Source of the DNA: Muribaculaceae bacterium | GTDB taxonomy: Bacteria > Bacteroidota > Bacteroidia > Bacteroidales > Muribaculaceae | DNA: 5,022 bases | Reading direction: 5' to 3' | Assembly: GCA_017545095.1 (NCBI GenBank) | Contig: JAFYCU010000236.1 | Coordinates: forward strand, 1 to 5,022 | In this document: piece by piece, positions 1 through 4,713 of the stretch | Layout: each line of letters starts with the position of its first letter | Numbering within the stretch: the first letter of the stretch is position 1 | Made by a program: the position numbers and the translations under genes | The notes under the pieces: model-generated | What the model was told of the DNA's origin: nothing | What the model saw: only the letters and a program-made list of their open reading frames with translations | Databases searched by the model: none

Positions 1-1071
1 CACGATGGGTTTTCGGCCCTCGAGCGACTGCGCGTGGTGCTCAATAATCTGGTTGGCCTCGATGGTGATTTGACGGTCAAGCTCCTTGCGATCTTTGTTA
101 TACTGGTCGATTCTTTGGCTTATCTCGGCTGCCTCGGCGGGGTTGCGCGTCACCAGCAGCTCCACCGACTCCTGCCCCGACTCCATGCGGCCCGAGGCAT
201 TGATGCGCGGACCGATTTTGAAAATGATGTCGCTGATGCCCAAATCCTTGCCCGACAGTCCACACAGCTTGATGATGCTTTTCAGTCCCACATTGGGATT
301 GTTGTTGAGCCGCCGCAGGCCAAAAAAGGTCATCACGCGGTTCTCGCCCGTGAGTGGCACGATGTCGGCAGCTATGCTCACAGCCACCAGGTCGAGCATG
401 CACTCCAGGTCGTAGAGATTGGTGAATCCATTGCTGCGAGCAAAGGCCTGCATGAACTTGTAGCCCACACCACAGCCCGACAACCCCTTGAAGGGGTATC
501 GGTCGTCGACTTGCTTGGGATTGAGAATCGCCGCAGCATCGGGCAGCACATCATCGGGCACATGGTGATCGCACACGATGAACTCGATGCCCTTTTGCTT
601 GGCATATGCAATCTCGTCCACGGCCTTGATGCCGCAGTCGAGCACGATGATGAGTGTCACCCCAACACTCTCGGCATAGTCGATGCTCTGCCTCGAAATC
701 CCGTAACCCTCATCATCGCGGGTGGGAATGTAGAACACCATGTTGGAGTAGAAGTTCTGCAAATAGCGGTAGACAAGCGCCACCGCTGTCGTTCCATCTA
801 CATCATAGTCGCCATAGACCATGATTTTCTCTTTTGCCCCTAACGCCTGATTGAGCCGGGCCACCGCCCGGTCCATATCCTTCATCAGGAATGGATCGGG
901 CATTTGGCTGAGCGAGGGACTGAAGAATGCCTGCACATCGTCGGGCGTCTTCATGCCACGCAGTACCAAAAGCCGTGCGATGGAGGGACAGTTGGGATAT
1001 AGTTCGGCCAACTGTCGCTCTATCTTTTGTTCTTCGGGTGTCAGTGGTAAGTAATTCCATTTACTTATCAT
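1..1071 (-). CDS. recJ: Single-stranded-DNA-specific exonuclease RecJ (N-terminal 357 residues; C-terminus beyond window)
   Basis: RecJ is a cytoplasmic DHH-family 5'-3' exonuclease that degrades single-stranded DNA in recombination and mismatch repair, using divalent metals. The minus-strand frame shows the family motifs in order: YGDYDVDG (residues 86-93), the aspartate of VLDCGI (143-148), the signature CDHH (167-170), NPKQ (184-187), SGCGVGYK (198-205), DLVAVSIAADIVPL (227-240) and GPRINASGRM (287-296). All metal-binding residues of the DHH core appear intact. The start ATG at 1071-1069 is chosen because an in-frame TAA lies directly before it and the MISKWNYLPLTPEEQ beginning is RecJ-like. 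No Shine-Dalgarno is present, only an A-rich leader, as usual in Bacteroidetes. Family members are commonly about 570 residues, so roughly 200 residues (DHHA1 and OB-like part) lie off the left edge. It is transcribed leftward, divergent from the META-dnaG pair, and may be served by the upstream promoter at 1341-1371. Identification is secure. Confidence 0.97.
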   Translation of the reverse strand, partial: MISKWNYLPLTPEEQKIERQLAELYPNCPSIARLLVLRGMKTPDDVQAFFSPSLSQMPDPFLMKDMDRAVARLNQALGAKEKIMVYGDYDVDGTTAVALVYRYLQNFYSNMVFYIPTRDDEGYGISRQSIDYAESVGVTLIIVLDCGIKAVDEIAYAKQKGIEFIVCDHHVPDDVLPDAAAILNPKQVDDRYPFKGLSGCGVGYKFMQAFARSNGFTNLYDLECMLDLVAVSIAADIVPLTGENRVMTFFGLRRLNNNPNVGLKSIIKLCGLSGKDLGISDIIFKIGPRINASGRMESGQESVELLVTRNPAEAAEISQRIDQYNKDRKELDRQITIEANQIIEHHAQSLEGRKPIV

Positions 1072-1102
1072 TTATGTTGTTTTATTTATGTGCAAGTTAT
1101 CA

Positions 1103-1123
1103 GTCCCGCCCGCTGGCGGCGAC
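1103..1123. other. GC-rich hairpin between the ncRNA candidate and recJ
   Basis: GTC-CCGCC-CGCT-GGCGG-C-GAC forms an 8-bp stem with a tetraloop and a single bulged base. On the recJ strand it lies just after the 3' end of the structured RNA candidate and about 30 bases before the recJ start. No T-run follows it in either direction, so it is not a standard intrinsic terminator. It could be a processing, stability or partial-termination element separating the RNA from recJ. The stem is seen directly; its role is inferred. Confidence 0.45.
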
Positions 1124-1133
1124 GATTAGAGGG

Positions 1134-1335
1134 TATATAGGGGAGCCATAAGCATTCGGCCCTGCGGCAACGATGGTCATGCGCTCAACCATTATCTGTG
1201 CCTTGTCATGGGACGGTGCTCTTAACACCTGATTCCCAAATGGCTGGCTAAGCATTCGCCACATGTGGCCACACACACGATTCACCCCGTGCCCAAGCCA
1301 CGAATAATCGCCATAGGCCTTTCGGCTCCTATAAA
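1134..1335 (-). ncRNA. Structured non-coding RNA candidate, 6S-like architecture
   Basis: About 200 nt downstream of a strong minus-strand promoter can fold into a closed rod. Closing stem: 1333-1324 pairs with 1147-1136 (UAUAGGAGCC with GGCUCC/UAUA, two bulged C). Second helix: 1319-1308 (GGCCU, UGGCGA) pairs with 1170-1158 (UUGCCG, GGGCC), 11 bp including wobbles. The 3' strand then carries a hairpin, 1192-1187 with 1178-1173 (AUGGUU/GACCAU). The apex pairs 1238-1234 with 1213-1209 (UGGGA/UCCCA), topped by 1229-1224 with 1220-1215 (GGUGUU/AGCACC). Paired ends, a large internal bubble with a 3'-side hairpin, and about 200 nt of length are features of 6S RNA, which binds RNA polymerase holoenzyme; I do not recognise the primary sequence, so this is inference. 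An alternative 5' hairpin with a GAAA loop (1332-1314) competes with the first two stems. It may be a long structured recJ leader instead. The 61-codon frame across it has no protein-like features. Confidence 0.55.
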
Positions 1336-1340
1336 TTGCA

Positions 1341-1371
1341 CAAAGTTACAGAAAACACGCGGTTCTTCAAA
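1341..1371 (-). promoter_or_regulatory. Bacteroidetes-type promoter driving the structured RNA and possibly recJ
   Basis: On the minus strand, TTTG (1371-1368) and TAACTTTG (1348-1341) are separated by exactly 19 bases. The second box is a perfect match to the TAnnTTTG -7 element and the first to the -33 TTTG element of the Bacteroidetes primary sigma factor. The expected transcript start, about 6-10 bases downstream (1331-1335), coincides with the 5' strand of the RNA closing stem. That agreement of two independent signals raises confidence in both. Confidence 0.68.
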
Positions 1372-1445
1372 ATAAGCACCCCACAATTTAGATTTCTTGA
1401 ATGTTTTTTATTTATATTTAACATATTTAATGGATTATGATACAA

Positions 1446-1494
1446 CGCTCACAATGATATAACCGCGCCCCGACACACCACCCCTTTGTGAGCG
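1446..1494. repeat. 9-bp perfect inverted repeat in AT-rich spacer
   Basis: CGCTCACAA (1446-1454) and TTGTGAGCG (1486-1494) are exact reverse complements with a 31-base spacer. They lie between the two divergent promoters: about 50 bases upstream of the META-gene promoter candidate and about 75 bases behind the minus-strand promoter. The arms could be paired protein-binding half-sites or a long hairpin. No T-run follows, so a terminator is unlikely. A chance repeat of this size is possible. Confidence 0.4.
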
Positions 1495-1541
1495 AAAGAG
1501 CAATTTCACTTTTTCAAAAATTCTTAAAAGAACTTGCATGA

Positions 1542-1573
1542 TTTGCACAGTTGCTGGAAAATGCCGAAATTTG
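1542..1573 (+). promoter_or_regulatory. Candidate promoter of the META-domain gene
   Basis: TTTG (1542-1545) is followed after 20 bases by GAAATTTG (1566-1573), one mismatch from the Bacteroidetes -7 consensus TAnnTTTG. A transcript start near 1580 would leave a leader of about 20-25 bases before the ATG at 1603. This placement favours 1603 over the upstream in-frame ATGs at 1534 and 1561. Confidence 0.4.
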
Positions 1574-1602
1574 AACCCTTAAATCAAAACGCATCCCACC
1601 CT

Positions 1603-2460
1603 ATGACCGCAAAACAGTTCATCTGTGCTATGCTCGTGGCAGCGATGGTGCTTGCTCCCGCCGATGCCGAAGCACGCAAGAAGAAGAAAAAATATGAGAA
1701 AAAGACGGTGAACGTTGAGCAGGCAGTTGCTTCCGAGCCCACGCCGCAGCCAGTCACCGTCACCGACCCGGCCCGTCAGCTCTATGGCGAATGGAACATC
1801 GAGACCATTCGCCGCAAACCAGCGCTGACGCGCGAGCGTGCCTATATCTACCTCGACTTCAAGAGCCACAAGGTGTATGGCAACAACGGGTGCAACAGCC
1901 TGAACGGCAGCTTCAGCCAGCGCGGCACCGACATCTCGTTCCACGACATGATCACTACCAGCAACACGTGCCACAGCGGCACCAACGAGCGCACCGTGAT
2001 GAAGACGCTCGCCGAGGTGCAACGGTTCCAGCTCAGCCGGCAGGGCGATGTGGAGTGGCTCACACTCACCAACACCAAAGACCAGCCGCTGATGACCCTG
2101 CGCAGGCAGAACCTCGACTTCCTCGACGGTGTGTGGCTCGTGAGCGAGGCTGGCGGCAACGACATCACAGCGCAAAACGTGCGGCTTGTCATCGATGCCA
2201 ACATGCTCACCATTCATGGCAACACCGGATGCAACATCATCAACGGCATCATCACCATCGACCCCACCAAGCGCTTTGCTATACAATTCGAAGACCTGCA
2301 CTCCTCGGGCAACAATAGCGAGAACATCGATATTGAAACGGCTGTGCTCGTAGCACTCGAGCAGACCGTGACCTGCCGGCGGCTCGACGACCAACGGGCA
2401 GCACTCATCGACGAAAAAGGCAACACCACCATGGTGCTCACCCACATTACACTACGATAA
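1603..2460 (+). CDS. Exported protein with two tandem META/HslJ-like domains
   Basis: The 285-residue product begins with a signal peptide (residues 1-24: hydrophobic ICAMLVAAMVLAPADAEA, probable cleavage after AEA), followed by a lysine-rich stretch (RKKKKKYEKK, 25-34) and a short proline/threonine-rich linker. Two similar domains follow, about 60-168 and 172-283. Each opens with an L-x-G-x-W strand (YGEW, DGVW) and carries the family's G-N-x-G-C-N-x-x-N-G motif (GNNGCNSLNG 93-102; GNTGCNIING 206-215). The first also has TTSNTC (118-123), matching the usual threonine-cysteine motif; the second does not. META (DUF306) proteins such as HslJ are envelope proteins linked in other bacteria to heat shock and novobiocin resistance; the exact role here is unknown. 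The ATG at 1603 is preferred because it begins directly with the signal peptide and sits just after the promoter candidate; frames opening at 1534 or 1561 would put a polar extension before it. dnaG follows after 16 bases, suggesting co-transcription. Confidence 0.85.
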   Translation: MTAKQFICAMLVAAMVLAPADAEARKKKKKYEKKTVNVEQAVASEPTPQPVTVTDPARQLYGEWNIETIRRKPALTRERAYIYLDFKSHKVYGNNGCNSLNGSFSQRGTDISFHDMITTSNTCHSGTNERTVMKTLAEVQRFQLSRQGDVEWLTLTNTKDQPLMTLRRQNLDFLDGVWLVSEAGGNDITAQNVRLVIDANMLTIHGNTGCNIINGIITIDPTKRFAIQFEDLHSSGNNSENIDIETAVLVALEQTVTCRRLDDQRAALIDEKGNTTMVLTHITLR

Positions 2461-2476
2461 CACACAACAGCAAACC

Positions 2477-4651
2477 ATGATTGACCAGACCACCGTAAAC
2501 CAAATCCTAGACACTGCCGACATCGTTGACGTGGTGAGCGACTTCGTGAGCCTGCGGCAGCGTGGAGCCAACTGGGTGGGCCTGTGCCCATTCCACAACG
2601 ACCGCACACCGTCGTTCTACGTGTCGCGGGCCAAGGGTATTTGCAAATGCTTCAGCTGCGGCGAGGGAGGAAGCGCCGTCAACTTCATCATGAAGCACGA
2701 GCAAATGACCTATGTGGAAGCGCTGAAATACCTGGCCAACAAATACCACATCGAAATCAAGGAGCGCGAGCTCACCGACGAGGAACGCAGCGCACAGACC
2801 GAGCGTGAGTCGATGCTCGTGCTCAACGAGTGGGCGTGCCAGTTCTTCGAAGACCAGCTGTGGAACACCACCCAAGGGCAGGAAATAGGACTCTCCTACT
2901 TCCGTCAACGCGGCTTCAGCGATGCCACCATACGCCTCTTCAGACTCGGCTACTCTCCCGATAATTCCAACACCCTCTATCGCACGGCCACGCAGCAGGG
3001 CTACAGTCACGACCTGCTGCTCAAACTCGGCCTGTGCAAGATGAACCAGCAGGGGCGCCCATTCGATTTCTATCGCGGGCGCGTGATGTTCCCCATCTTT
3101 AACGTGGCCGGCAAGGTCATCGCCTTTGGCGGGCGAACGCTCAAGAAAGACGACAAGGCCAAATATTTCAACTCGCCCGAATCAATCATCTACACCAAGA
3201 GTTCCAGCACCATGTATGGCCTCTACCAGGCCAAACGCGCCATTGTGTCGGAAAAGAAATGCTTCATCGTCGAAGGCTATGCCGATGTGATTTCGATGCA
3301 TCAAGCCGGATTCCAGAACGTGATCGCCTCATCGGGCACAGCCCTCACCGAGGGGCACATCCACCTGCTGCATCGGTTCACCGACACCGTTACCGAAATG
3401 TTCGACGGCGACGAAGCCGGCATCCACGCCGCCCTGCGAGGCATCGACATGCTGCTGCGCGAAGGACTCAACATCAAGGTGCTTCTCTTGCCCGACGGCG
3501 AGGACCCCGATAGTTTCGCGCAAAGCCATTCGTCGAGCGAGGTGCAGCAATACATCGAGCAGAACGAGCAGGACTTCATCCGCTTCAAGAGCGAAATCCT
3601 GCTGCGCGGTGCCGGCAACGACCCCATCAGGCGAGCACAGGCCATCGAGGACGTGGTGAAGTCGATTGCCGTCATTCCACAGGAAATCACACGGTCGGTC
3701 TATGCCAAAGAGTGCGCCGCGCTGTTCGGCATTCAAGAGAGTGTGCTCCTGCGCGACATCTACCGACATGTGCGCAAAAATCTGGACGAGCAGCACCGAC
3801 GTCGGCAACAATCTGGCCAACAGCCAACCGAAACACCCGTCGCCGACCAACCACAAGACCAGCAGCCCCTGCAATCGCAGCAACCCGTCACCCAGCTGCA
3901 CACCGTGAAGCAGGATGCCACCCATCACGTGGCCATGCAGGAGCACGATTTGGTGCGCTACATCGCCAAATATGCCATGTGCTACCTGTGCGACACCATC
4001 GCCGACGATGGCTCGCAGCTGCCTTCCACCGTGATTGAATACATCCGCACCGAACTCGACATCGACAACATCCAGTTCACCGTGCCAGCCTACAAGAAAA
4101 TCTACGACATCGCTCTGAGCCTCATCGACACGTTCCGTAACGATTTGGCTCAATACGACCAAGAGACCCAGCAATGGATGCAGCAAGCCTATCGCGAACG
4201 GCTTAAAACCATCGACCCCACCGGGCTCACCAGCAACGAGCTGCAAAAGAAAGAAGAGGAAATCACCGCTGCGCTCACCCAGCAGGCACACGAACGCCTC
4301 GACCTCTACCGACAGTGCTATCTGGAAAAAATCCTGTGCTCACACCTCGACGATGAAGTGCGCAACACCGCTTGCGACCTGGTGAGCGACAAATACCAAT
4401 TGAGCAAAATCCACACTCAGCTCGCCCATATCACCACCGAGCGCGAACGACTCATCTCTCTGGTGCCTAAGGCCATCTGCACATGGAAAGACAGTCTGCT
4501 CAAGCAGCAAATCTACCAACTGTGCATAACCATCGCTCAAACCACCGACCAGCAACAGTGCGACCAGTTCATGCAACAGCTGCAACAGCTTTACCAAATC
4601 CGCAGCCAGCTGTCAAAGCTCATCGGCGACCGAGTTGTGGTGCCAAAGTGA
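2477..4651 (+). CDS. dnaG: DNA primase DnaG
   Basis: DnaG synthesises RNA primers for lagging-strand and origin replication, working with the replicative helicase DnaB. All functional parts of the 724-residue product are visible. The N-terminal CHC2 zinc domain has ligands C37, H40, C58 and C61 (CPFH ... CFSC) with the standard 17-residue gap. The RNA-polymerase core contains RVMFPIFN and IAFGGR (202-220) and YFNSPES (230-236). The Toprim domain has VEGYADV (265-271, acidic E266 and D270), FDGDEAG (309-315, D310 and D312) and LPDGEDPDSF (338-347). After about residue 440 comes a low-complexity glutamine/proline linker (443-475) and a long helical C-terminal region (about 484-720), where family members bind DnaB. 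The protein is longer than the E. coli enzyme (581 residues), mainly through this linker and C-terminal part. The start ATG has no Shine-Dalgarno, only an A/C-rich leader. The neighbours are a META-domain gene and an exported protein, so the classical rpsU-dnaG-rpoD arrangement is absent. Confidence 0.98.
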   Translation: MIDQTTVNQILDTADIVDVVSDFVSLRQRGANWVGLCPFHNDRTPSFYVSRAKGICKCFSCGEGGSAVNFIMKHEQMTYVEALKYLANKYHIEIKERELTDEERSAQTERESMLVLNEWACQFFEDQLWNTTQGQEIGLSYFRQRGFSDATIRLFRLGYSPDNSNTLYRTATQQGYSHDLLLKLGLCKMNQQGRPFDFYRGRVMFPIFNVAGKVIAFGGRTLKKDDKAKYFNSPESIIYTKSSSTMYGLYQAKRAIVSEKKCFIVEGYADVISMHQAGFQNVIASSGTALTEGHIHLLHRFTDTVTEMFDGDEAGIHAALRGIDMLLREGLNIKVLLLPDGEDPDSFAQSHSSSEVQQYIEQNEQDFIRFKSEILLRGAGNDPIRRAQAIEDVVKSIAVIPQEITRSVYAKECAALFGIQESVLLRDIYRHVRKNLDEQHRRRQQSGQQPTETPVADQPQDQQPLQSQQPVTQLHTVKQDATHHVAMQEHDLVRYIAKYAMCYLCDTIADDGSQLPSTVIEYIRTELDIDNIQFTVPAYKKIYDIALSLIDTFRNDLAQYDQETQQWMQQAYRERLKTIDPTGLTSNELQKKEEEITAALTQQAHERLDLYRQCYLEKILCSHLDDEVRNTACDLVSDKYQLSKIHTQLAHITTERERLISLVPKAICTWKDSLLKQQIYQLCITIAQTTDQQQCDQFMQQLQQLYQIRSQLSKLIGDRVVVPK

Positions 4652-4657
4652 TTTAAA

Positions 4658-4688
4658 AGATGCAAGAAGCAAGATGCAAGATGCAAGA
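4658..4688. repeat. Tandem heptamer repeat AGATGCA, about 4.4 copies
   Basis: Units AGATGCA (4658), AGAAGCA (4665), AGATGCA (4672) and AGATGCA (4679), then a partial AGA, run head to tail seven bases after the dnaG stop. The second unit differs by one base. Such arrays change copy number by slippage. They lie outside the coding frame, so variation would affect only the spacer or the 3' end of the dnaG transcript. Confidence 0.85.
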
Positions 4689-4713
4689 ACCGAGAGCACA
4701 ATCAGTCCGCAGG

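Follow-up and report, generated by a model that had tools for sequence, protein, structure and literature searches.

The recJ mRNA of a Muribaculaceae bacterium appears to begin with a conserved folded RNA that is probably not 6S RNA

The recJ locus and its upstream region

The window, by which we mean the whole stretch of 5,022 nucleotides analysed here, comes from a Muribaculaceae bacterium. The minus strand encodes the 5′ part of recJ. Divergent from it, the plus strand has a META-domain gene and dnaG (open reading frames and Pfam). Behind dnaG there are short AGATGCAAGA repeats (window 4655-4700). No tRNA or tmRNA was found in the window, and the window did not match any phage record.

Judged by RecJ, the nearest named relatives are Muribaculaceae or are labelled as related Bacteroidales, with 83-79% identity (loci L001-L009). 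One of them is Candidatus Sodaliphilus limicaballi (L003), whose RecJ is 81% identical to that of the window. The RecJ of genome G032 (loci L092 and L130) has 93% identity. Two contigs, L019 (titled Lachnospiraceae) and L042 (titled Staphylococcus), carry a Muribaculaceae-like recJ with 67% and 63% identity to the window, and their titles look wrong. The open reading frame after recJ reads as RecQ in L003, L004, L011, L020 and L053 (L016 ends within recJ). In L003, to which the Pfam check was confined, this reading frame has the helicase and the RecQ zinc-binding domains. We infer a recJ-recQ operon for the window as well, where recJ is cut off.

The recJ gene and the features upstream of it are the following:

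1341 to 1371, minus strand: promoter TTTG-N19-TAACTTTG (sequence; the same promoter type in the leaders of relatives)
1324 to 1333, minus strand: 5′ strand of the closing stem P1, TATAGGAGCC, at the putative transcript start (sequence; own-versus-swapped pairing test)
1307 to 1319, minus strand: 5′ strand of the second helix, GGCCTATGGCGAT (window fold)
1201 to 1243, minus strand: core, CCATTTG-hairpin-ATGACAAGG (covariation; match of model R1 at 1185-1259 with 39.5 bits)
1158 to 1174, minus strand: 3′ strand of the second helix, ATCGTTGCCGCAGGGCC (window fold)
1136 to 1147, minus strand: 3′ strand of P1, GGCTCCCCTATA (sequence; window fold; own-versus-swapped pairing test)
1103 to 1123, minus strand: start-proximal hairpin with loop AGCG, which lies 43 nt upstream of the recJ start codon (sequence; search and covariation in relatives)
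1069 to 1087, minus strand: A-rich stretch that runs up to and includes the start codon of recJ (sequence; similar in relatives)
1 to 1071, minus strand: 5′ part of recJ, cut by the window end (open reading frame; Pfam DHH with 95.5 bits; 79-83% identity to L001-L009)

An initial annotation of this DNA had proposed a promoter-driven structured RNA upstream of recJ, possibly of the 6S type. The promoter on which it built is indeed there: TTTG, 19 nt and TAACTTTG are found at 1371-1341 on the minus strand, an arrangement that we take to be the Bacteroidetes-type promoter consensus. The -7 element TAnnTTTG is present in 46 of the 47 leaders that bear the core, the window included, and an exact TTTG lies 17-23 nt upstream of the -7 element in 28 of the 47. 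Judging from the position of the promoter, transcription of the window leader would start at the 5′ strand of P1. The first nucleotides of the transcript would then be locked in P1, with the partner strand about 190 nt downstream.

Conserved pairing in the recJ leader

The closing stem and the second helix had also been proposed from the sequence. Both strands of P1 lie in the expected places, and the strands of the second helix are present as described, with the helix appearing in the minimum-energy fold of the window. The 201-nt fold of the window is weakly better than those of shuffled sequences (z = -1.72; 11 of 200 shuffles are equal or better). Because the window's own fold is not exceptional, the case rests on the relatives.

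For P1, we calculated the duplex energy between the first nucleotides of each transcript and its own 3′ part and compared it with the energies obtained with the partners from swapped leaders. The test covered 46 leaders with a recognised promoter; L136 was left out of the 46-leader tests since its promoter was not found. Leaders pair their own 5′ and 3′ ends better than swapped ends: at 14, 18, 20 and 24 nt each, 0 of 20000 permutations were as good. For the 15 later-found leaders alone, 35, 24 and 2 of 20000 permutations were as good at 18, 20 and 24 nt; for 28 representatives the numbers were 11, 7 and 0. A control with the 5′ strand reversed gave 2067 of 20000. With the promoter positions as they stood before correction, the test yielded 0.0131, 0.0022 and 0.0003 for 31 leaders, 0.0239, 0.0059 and 0.0014 for 22 leaders, 0.031 for the 15 new leaders and 0 of 20000 for the 46 leaders (reversed control 0.49, mid-leader control 0.27). 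Among six subgroup consensus folds, that of group I contains P1 with compensatory changes, and P1 is absent from the other five. As a predicted stem, P1 is well supported across the leader set, though not for each subgroup.

The apical region (1243-1201) is the best conserved part of the leader. The core shared within the Muribaculaceae is CCAUUUG-hairpin-AUGAYAAGG, flanked by covarying stems. We aligned 29 of the 31 leaders then available (alignment A1; L110 and L113 were excluded for their long inner loops). In these 29 leaders, 81.2% of the positions in the core-flanking stems form standard pairs compared to 64.2% after shuffling, and the covariation score is 0.514 compared to 0.193 for shuffled alignments and at most 0.180 for slid registers. 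The pair beside the invariant G-C is formed in all 29, by five different combinations (GC 16, AU 7, UA 4, CG 1, GU 1). When the leaders are folded singly, the inner G-C pair reaches a probability of at least 0.5 in 25 of 31 and the outer CC/GG pairs do so in 19 of 31. Read from A1 and from the predicted fold of L086, the conserved letters of the core could pair in one continuous helix from which a U and an AA bulge out.

The start-proximal hairpin (1123-1103) falls outside the interval of the initial annotation. We searched the 110 nt that precede recJ mechanically for hairpins with an AGNG loop and four pairs or more. Such a hairpin occurs in 31 of 46 leaders, where 1.09 would be expected from mononucleotide shuffles, and 28 of the 31 are located at -38 to -49. 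In 11 of the 46 leaders it is absent by this search, and in four it has just three pairs. Covariation was scored on alignment A2, for which 33 of the 47 leaders were picked for a correctly placed loop, so that the paired fraction is conditioned on this choice and 31 of 46 is the unconditioned count. Across these 33 loop-selected leaders the loop begins 39-48 nt upstream of the start codon and the letters of AG[AC]G are constant. All six pairs vary on both sides (covariation 0.709 versus 0.206).

The same hairpin test on L018-L080 gave four matches, one in L026 at -66 and three, with an AGTG loop, near -50 in the Bacteroides loci L062, L065 and L071. We also considered whether gene starts in general have this hairpin and rejected the idea, since the hairpin is nearly absent elsewhere in about 359 kb of two relatives. 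At that distance from a start codon it was found only for recJ of G011 and in one weak case with four pairs; the scan missed the recJ of G091 itself.

Covariation of stems does not by itself name the molecule, and the conserved element could also be DNA, either a protein site or a cruciform. We find this hardly credible: P1 has its 5′ end at the putative transcription start, and on the recJ strand G-U outnumbers A-C. The eight best core pairs have 28 G-U and 6 A-C cells, and the hairpin has 12 and 5. The excess fits an RNA of the recJ strand. It is a weak argument, because G-U (36) and A-C (15) are both below their shuffled means (45 and 28) when all 11 core pairs are counted.

Distribution of the core and a second leader class

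A BLAST search with the leader against 80 recJ loci returned just two chance matches. BLAST misses the relatives because the leader diverges too fast. The core motif was first spotted by eye in leaders and then searched for as the pattern CCATTTG-hairpin-ATGAYAAGG, which is present in 33 of 101 genomes of the genus of G003 (reversed pattern: 1 of 101). We retrieved 30 of the 33 matches. According to tblastn, 24 are upstream of recJ; two are at contig ends (L085, where the recJ start is still visible, and L096), and the four elsewhere we read as chance.

The covariance model of the core, R1, counts the window itself among its 29 training sequences, and a second set of 16 leaders was found by R1 itself. 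At E≤0.01 the model has 41 matches in 40 of 397 genomes of the family, under strict filters with which misses are likely. Directly upstream of recJ are 38 of the 41 (37 loci and L113). The remaining matches are two at contig ends (G019 and G002) and one away from recJ (L154, 25 bits). At E≤0.05, R1 matches 44 of the 101 genomes of the genus. There is one core match per genome, save for one weak second match in G091, and we rejected a regulon on this ground. In 295 genomes of the order, the only strong match is in the seed genome; five weak ones (E 0.004-0.008) are not beside recJ. Hence, in the R1 searches of 397 family and 295 order genomes, the leader is restricted to one family.

Some relatives have a different structured recJ leader, GGTGGCA...GGCTTNTTAAAAAYCG with a closing stem:

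about 3838 to 3925 in L004-L010, and about 1501 to 1585 in L178-L207: second leader class (model R2)

Rfam gave one chance-level match for the leader of L004, and the AGNG hairpin test found none in L004-L010. R2, the model of this second class, matches 36 of the 101 genomes of the genus. In all 30 of the 36 that were retrieved, recJ is just downstream. The stems of the second class covary on alignment A5, which was fitted to the structure of R2 (0.323 versus 0.180); after realignment with MAFFT, the consensus fold keeps the middle helices only and the closing stem is lost. The second class fills the position that the core type has elsewhere, between promoter and recJ start. None of the 101 genomes carries both classes: 44 have the core type, 36 the second class and 21 neither at these thresholds. 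If the two were independent, and with kinship ignored, zero overlap would have a probability of 7e-13. A tRNA gene is located upstream of the recJ leader in L004 (Rfam), and a near-identical sequence can be seen by eye in L006, L007, L008 and L009.

Other recJ leaders differ again. A CTCTCC segment flanked by complementary arms (for example CCGGCTCTC...CCGGAAGCC) can be seen by eye in the leaders of L021, L026, L029, L038 and L040, and the Muribaculaceae leaders with this segment are possibly a third type. The leaders of Bacteroides and Prevotella look far shorter by eye. In Bacteroides (L062, L065 and L071; recJ at 4001) a hairpin, TTGTTGGAAAGAAGTGCCTTTC, lies right behind a promoter-like TAnnTTTR.

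A structured 5′ UTR might also act without any trans-acting partner and do no more than shield the 5′ end or keep the start region open. P1 would hide the first nucleotides of the transcript, leader types have been swapped between species, and Bacteroides and Prevotella manage with leaders that look much shorter, all of which would suit such a passive role. Yet the letters of the core are invariant while the surrounding stems change, and so are those of the AG[AC]G loop. Because stability alone requires no fixed letters, we consider a purely passive structure improbable.

Known RNA families and possible function

One part of the initial annotation stands: upstream of recJ, a Bacteroidetes-type promoter is followed by an RNA that is structured and conserved. 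Its suggestion of 6S RNA finds no support: Rfam has no match in the window, the 6S family RF00013 is absent from 18 relatives, and Bacteroidales-1 is present separately in 15 of them. Searched with Rfam at E≤10, the leader reaches chance level only (15.4 and 10.4 bits versus cut-offs of 41 and 55). The whole window gives two chance-level matches at this threshold, with RF00013, RF01685 and RF01693 unmatched. No known Rfam leader or riboswitch class reaches its gathering cut-off in the window, no family does so in the leader of L003, and the same is true for the recJ leaders of 14 of the 80 recJ loci.

Among 18 relatives, RF00013 was found in none (its control was positive in 5 of 14 genomes), and neither was RF01685 (6S-Flavo), whose control was silent too, so that this zero carries no weight. 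RF01693 (Bacteroidales-1) was found in 15 of the 18, and on another contig than the recJ leader in the 12 of these 15 that are comparable. RF01693 is regarded as the Bacteroidales 6S RNA, and the Bacteroides 6S RNA of the literature is presumably this same Bacteroidales-1. A Bacteroides 6S RNA is reported in PMC7366714, and in PMC2864571 Bacteroidales-1 is listed as an RNA with its cis-regulatory status left open.

Like the 6S RNAs (RF00013, RF01685 and RF01693), the RNA of the window has a length of about 200 nt, closed ends and its own promoter. The 6S architecture has closed ends and an open central bubble. Here P1 supports the closed ends, and the core takes the form of a stem that contains a small, conserved internal loop. 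Unlike 6S RNAs, the RNA runs towards recJ, includes a hairpin linked to the start codon and matches none of the three families. A free regulatory RNA, either 6S-like or a small RNA cut from the recJ leader, would account for the promoter, the closed ends and the length. It could also draw on the runs of at least six T that follow the core in 7 of 47 leaders, in which termination inside the leader is conceivable. Against it stand the unmatched Rfam 6S families and the Bacteroidales-1 of the 15 relatives. No terminator-like site was found at window 1000-1650, and the conserved hairpin is positioned relative to the recJ start. We judge a free RNA to be very improbable.

We conclude instead, with a probability of about 0.85, that the recJ mRNA (recJ-recQ in those relatives that were examined) carries this RNA as its structured 5′ leader, in cis and not as a separate RNA. 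A leader fits better than a free RNA because the conserved hairpin keeps a near-fixed distance to the recJ start codon. The conserved structure stands immediately before a single gene, after the promoter and ahead of the start codon. As far as comparison of sequences can tell, a folded RNA with evolutionarily conserved base pairs seems to stand at the beginning of the recJ mRNA, and it is probably not 6S RNA. No conserved leader peptide was seen by eye in the leaders that we read.

That this leader regulates recJ in cis, whatever its partner, is a step further and seems to us rather probable. Control of recJ, or of recJ-recQ, would then act after transcription has started. The core would bind a trans-acting factor. 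A protein is the likeliest candidate, and it may be RecJ or RecQ itself, which would amount to autogenous control. Whether the leader is open or closed would then affect the start-proximal hairpin or the protected 5′ end, and would in this way set the translation or the stability of the mRNA. The choice of a protein as the partner is tentative and stays clearly below even odds.

Leaders of ribosomal protein operons are autogenously regulated. The recJ leader resembles them in that there is one operon per genome, the core sits in covarying stems, the distribution is restricted to a lineage and the structures differ by lineage. By this analogy, one operon per genome together with exchange between lineages may point to an autogenous leader. 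The target here is a DNA-repair nuclease, unlike in ribosomal protein leaders, and the binding protein is putative. PMC7247131 gives archaeal S15 leader candidates for an operon that includes recJ; their target is rpsO and they occur in archaeal taxa.

A small molecule could take the place of the protein. The core and P1 would then be the aptamer of a riboswitch, for instance for a nucleotide or an alarmone that signals replication stress. With the riboswitches of Rfam the recJ leader shares a domain closed by a stem (P1), a conserved core, invariant within covarying stems, and the position in a 5′ leader. It differs from them in having a single target operon per genome and in matching no class, and an alternative pairing, a terminator or another expression platform was not identified in the window. 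We think a riboswitch unlikely.

Most of the conserved leader RNAs described belong to ribosomal protein, amino-acid or cofactor genes. The literature that we searched contained no bacterial recJ leader RNA. PMC8040213 reports RNA candidates by the thousands from human microbiomes, and the recJ leader may be among them. A new cis-acting leader RNA is our best reading.

We can also imagine, at a little less than even odds, that Muribaculaceae control the recJ-recQ repair operon by at least two mutually exclusive leader classes. The same problem would have been solved twice by RNA, either through an enzyme that binds its own message or through an aptamer that senses a ligand. P1, the core and the AG[AC]G hairpin are defined elements that are open to mutation and test, and the swap of structured leaders between species of one genus is a natural experiment on the turnover of such elements. 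A leader class on an operon for a DNA-repair exonuclease and a helicase would connect recombination with control by RNA in common gut bacteria.
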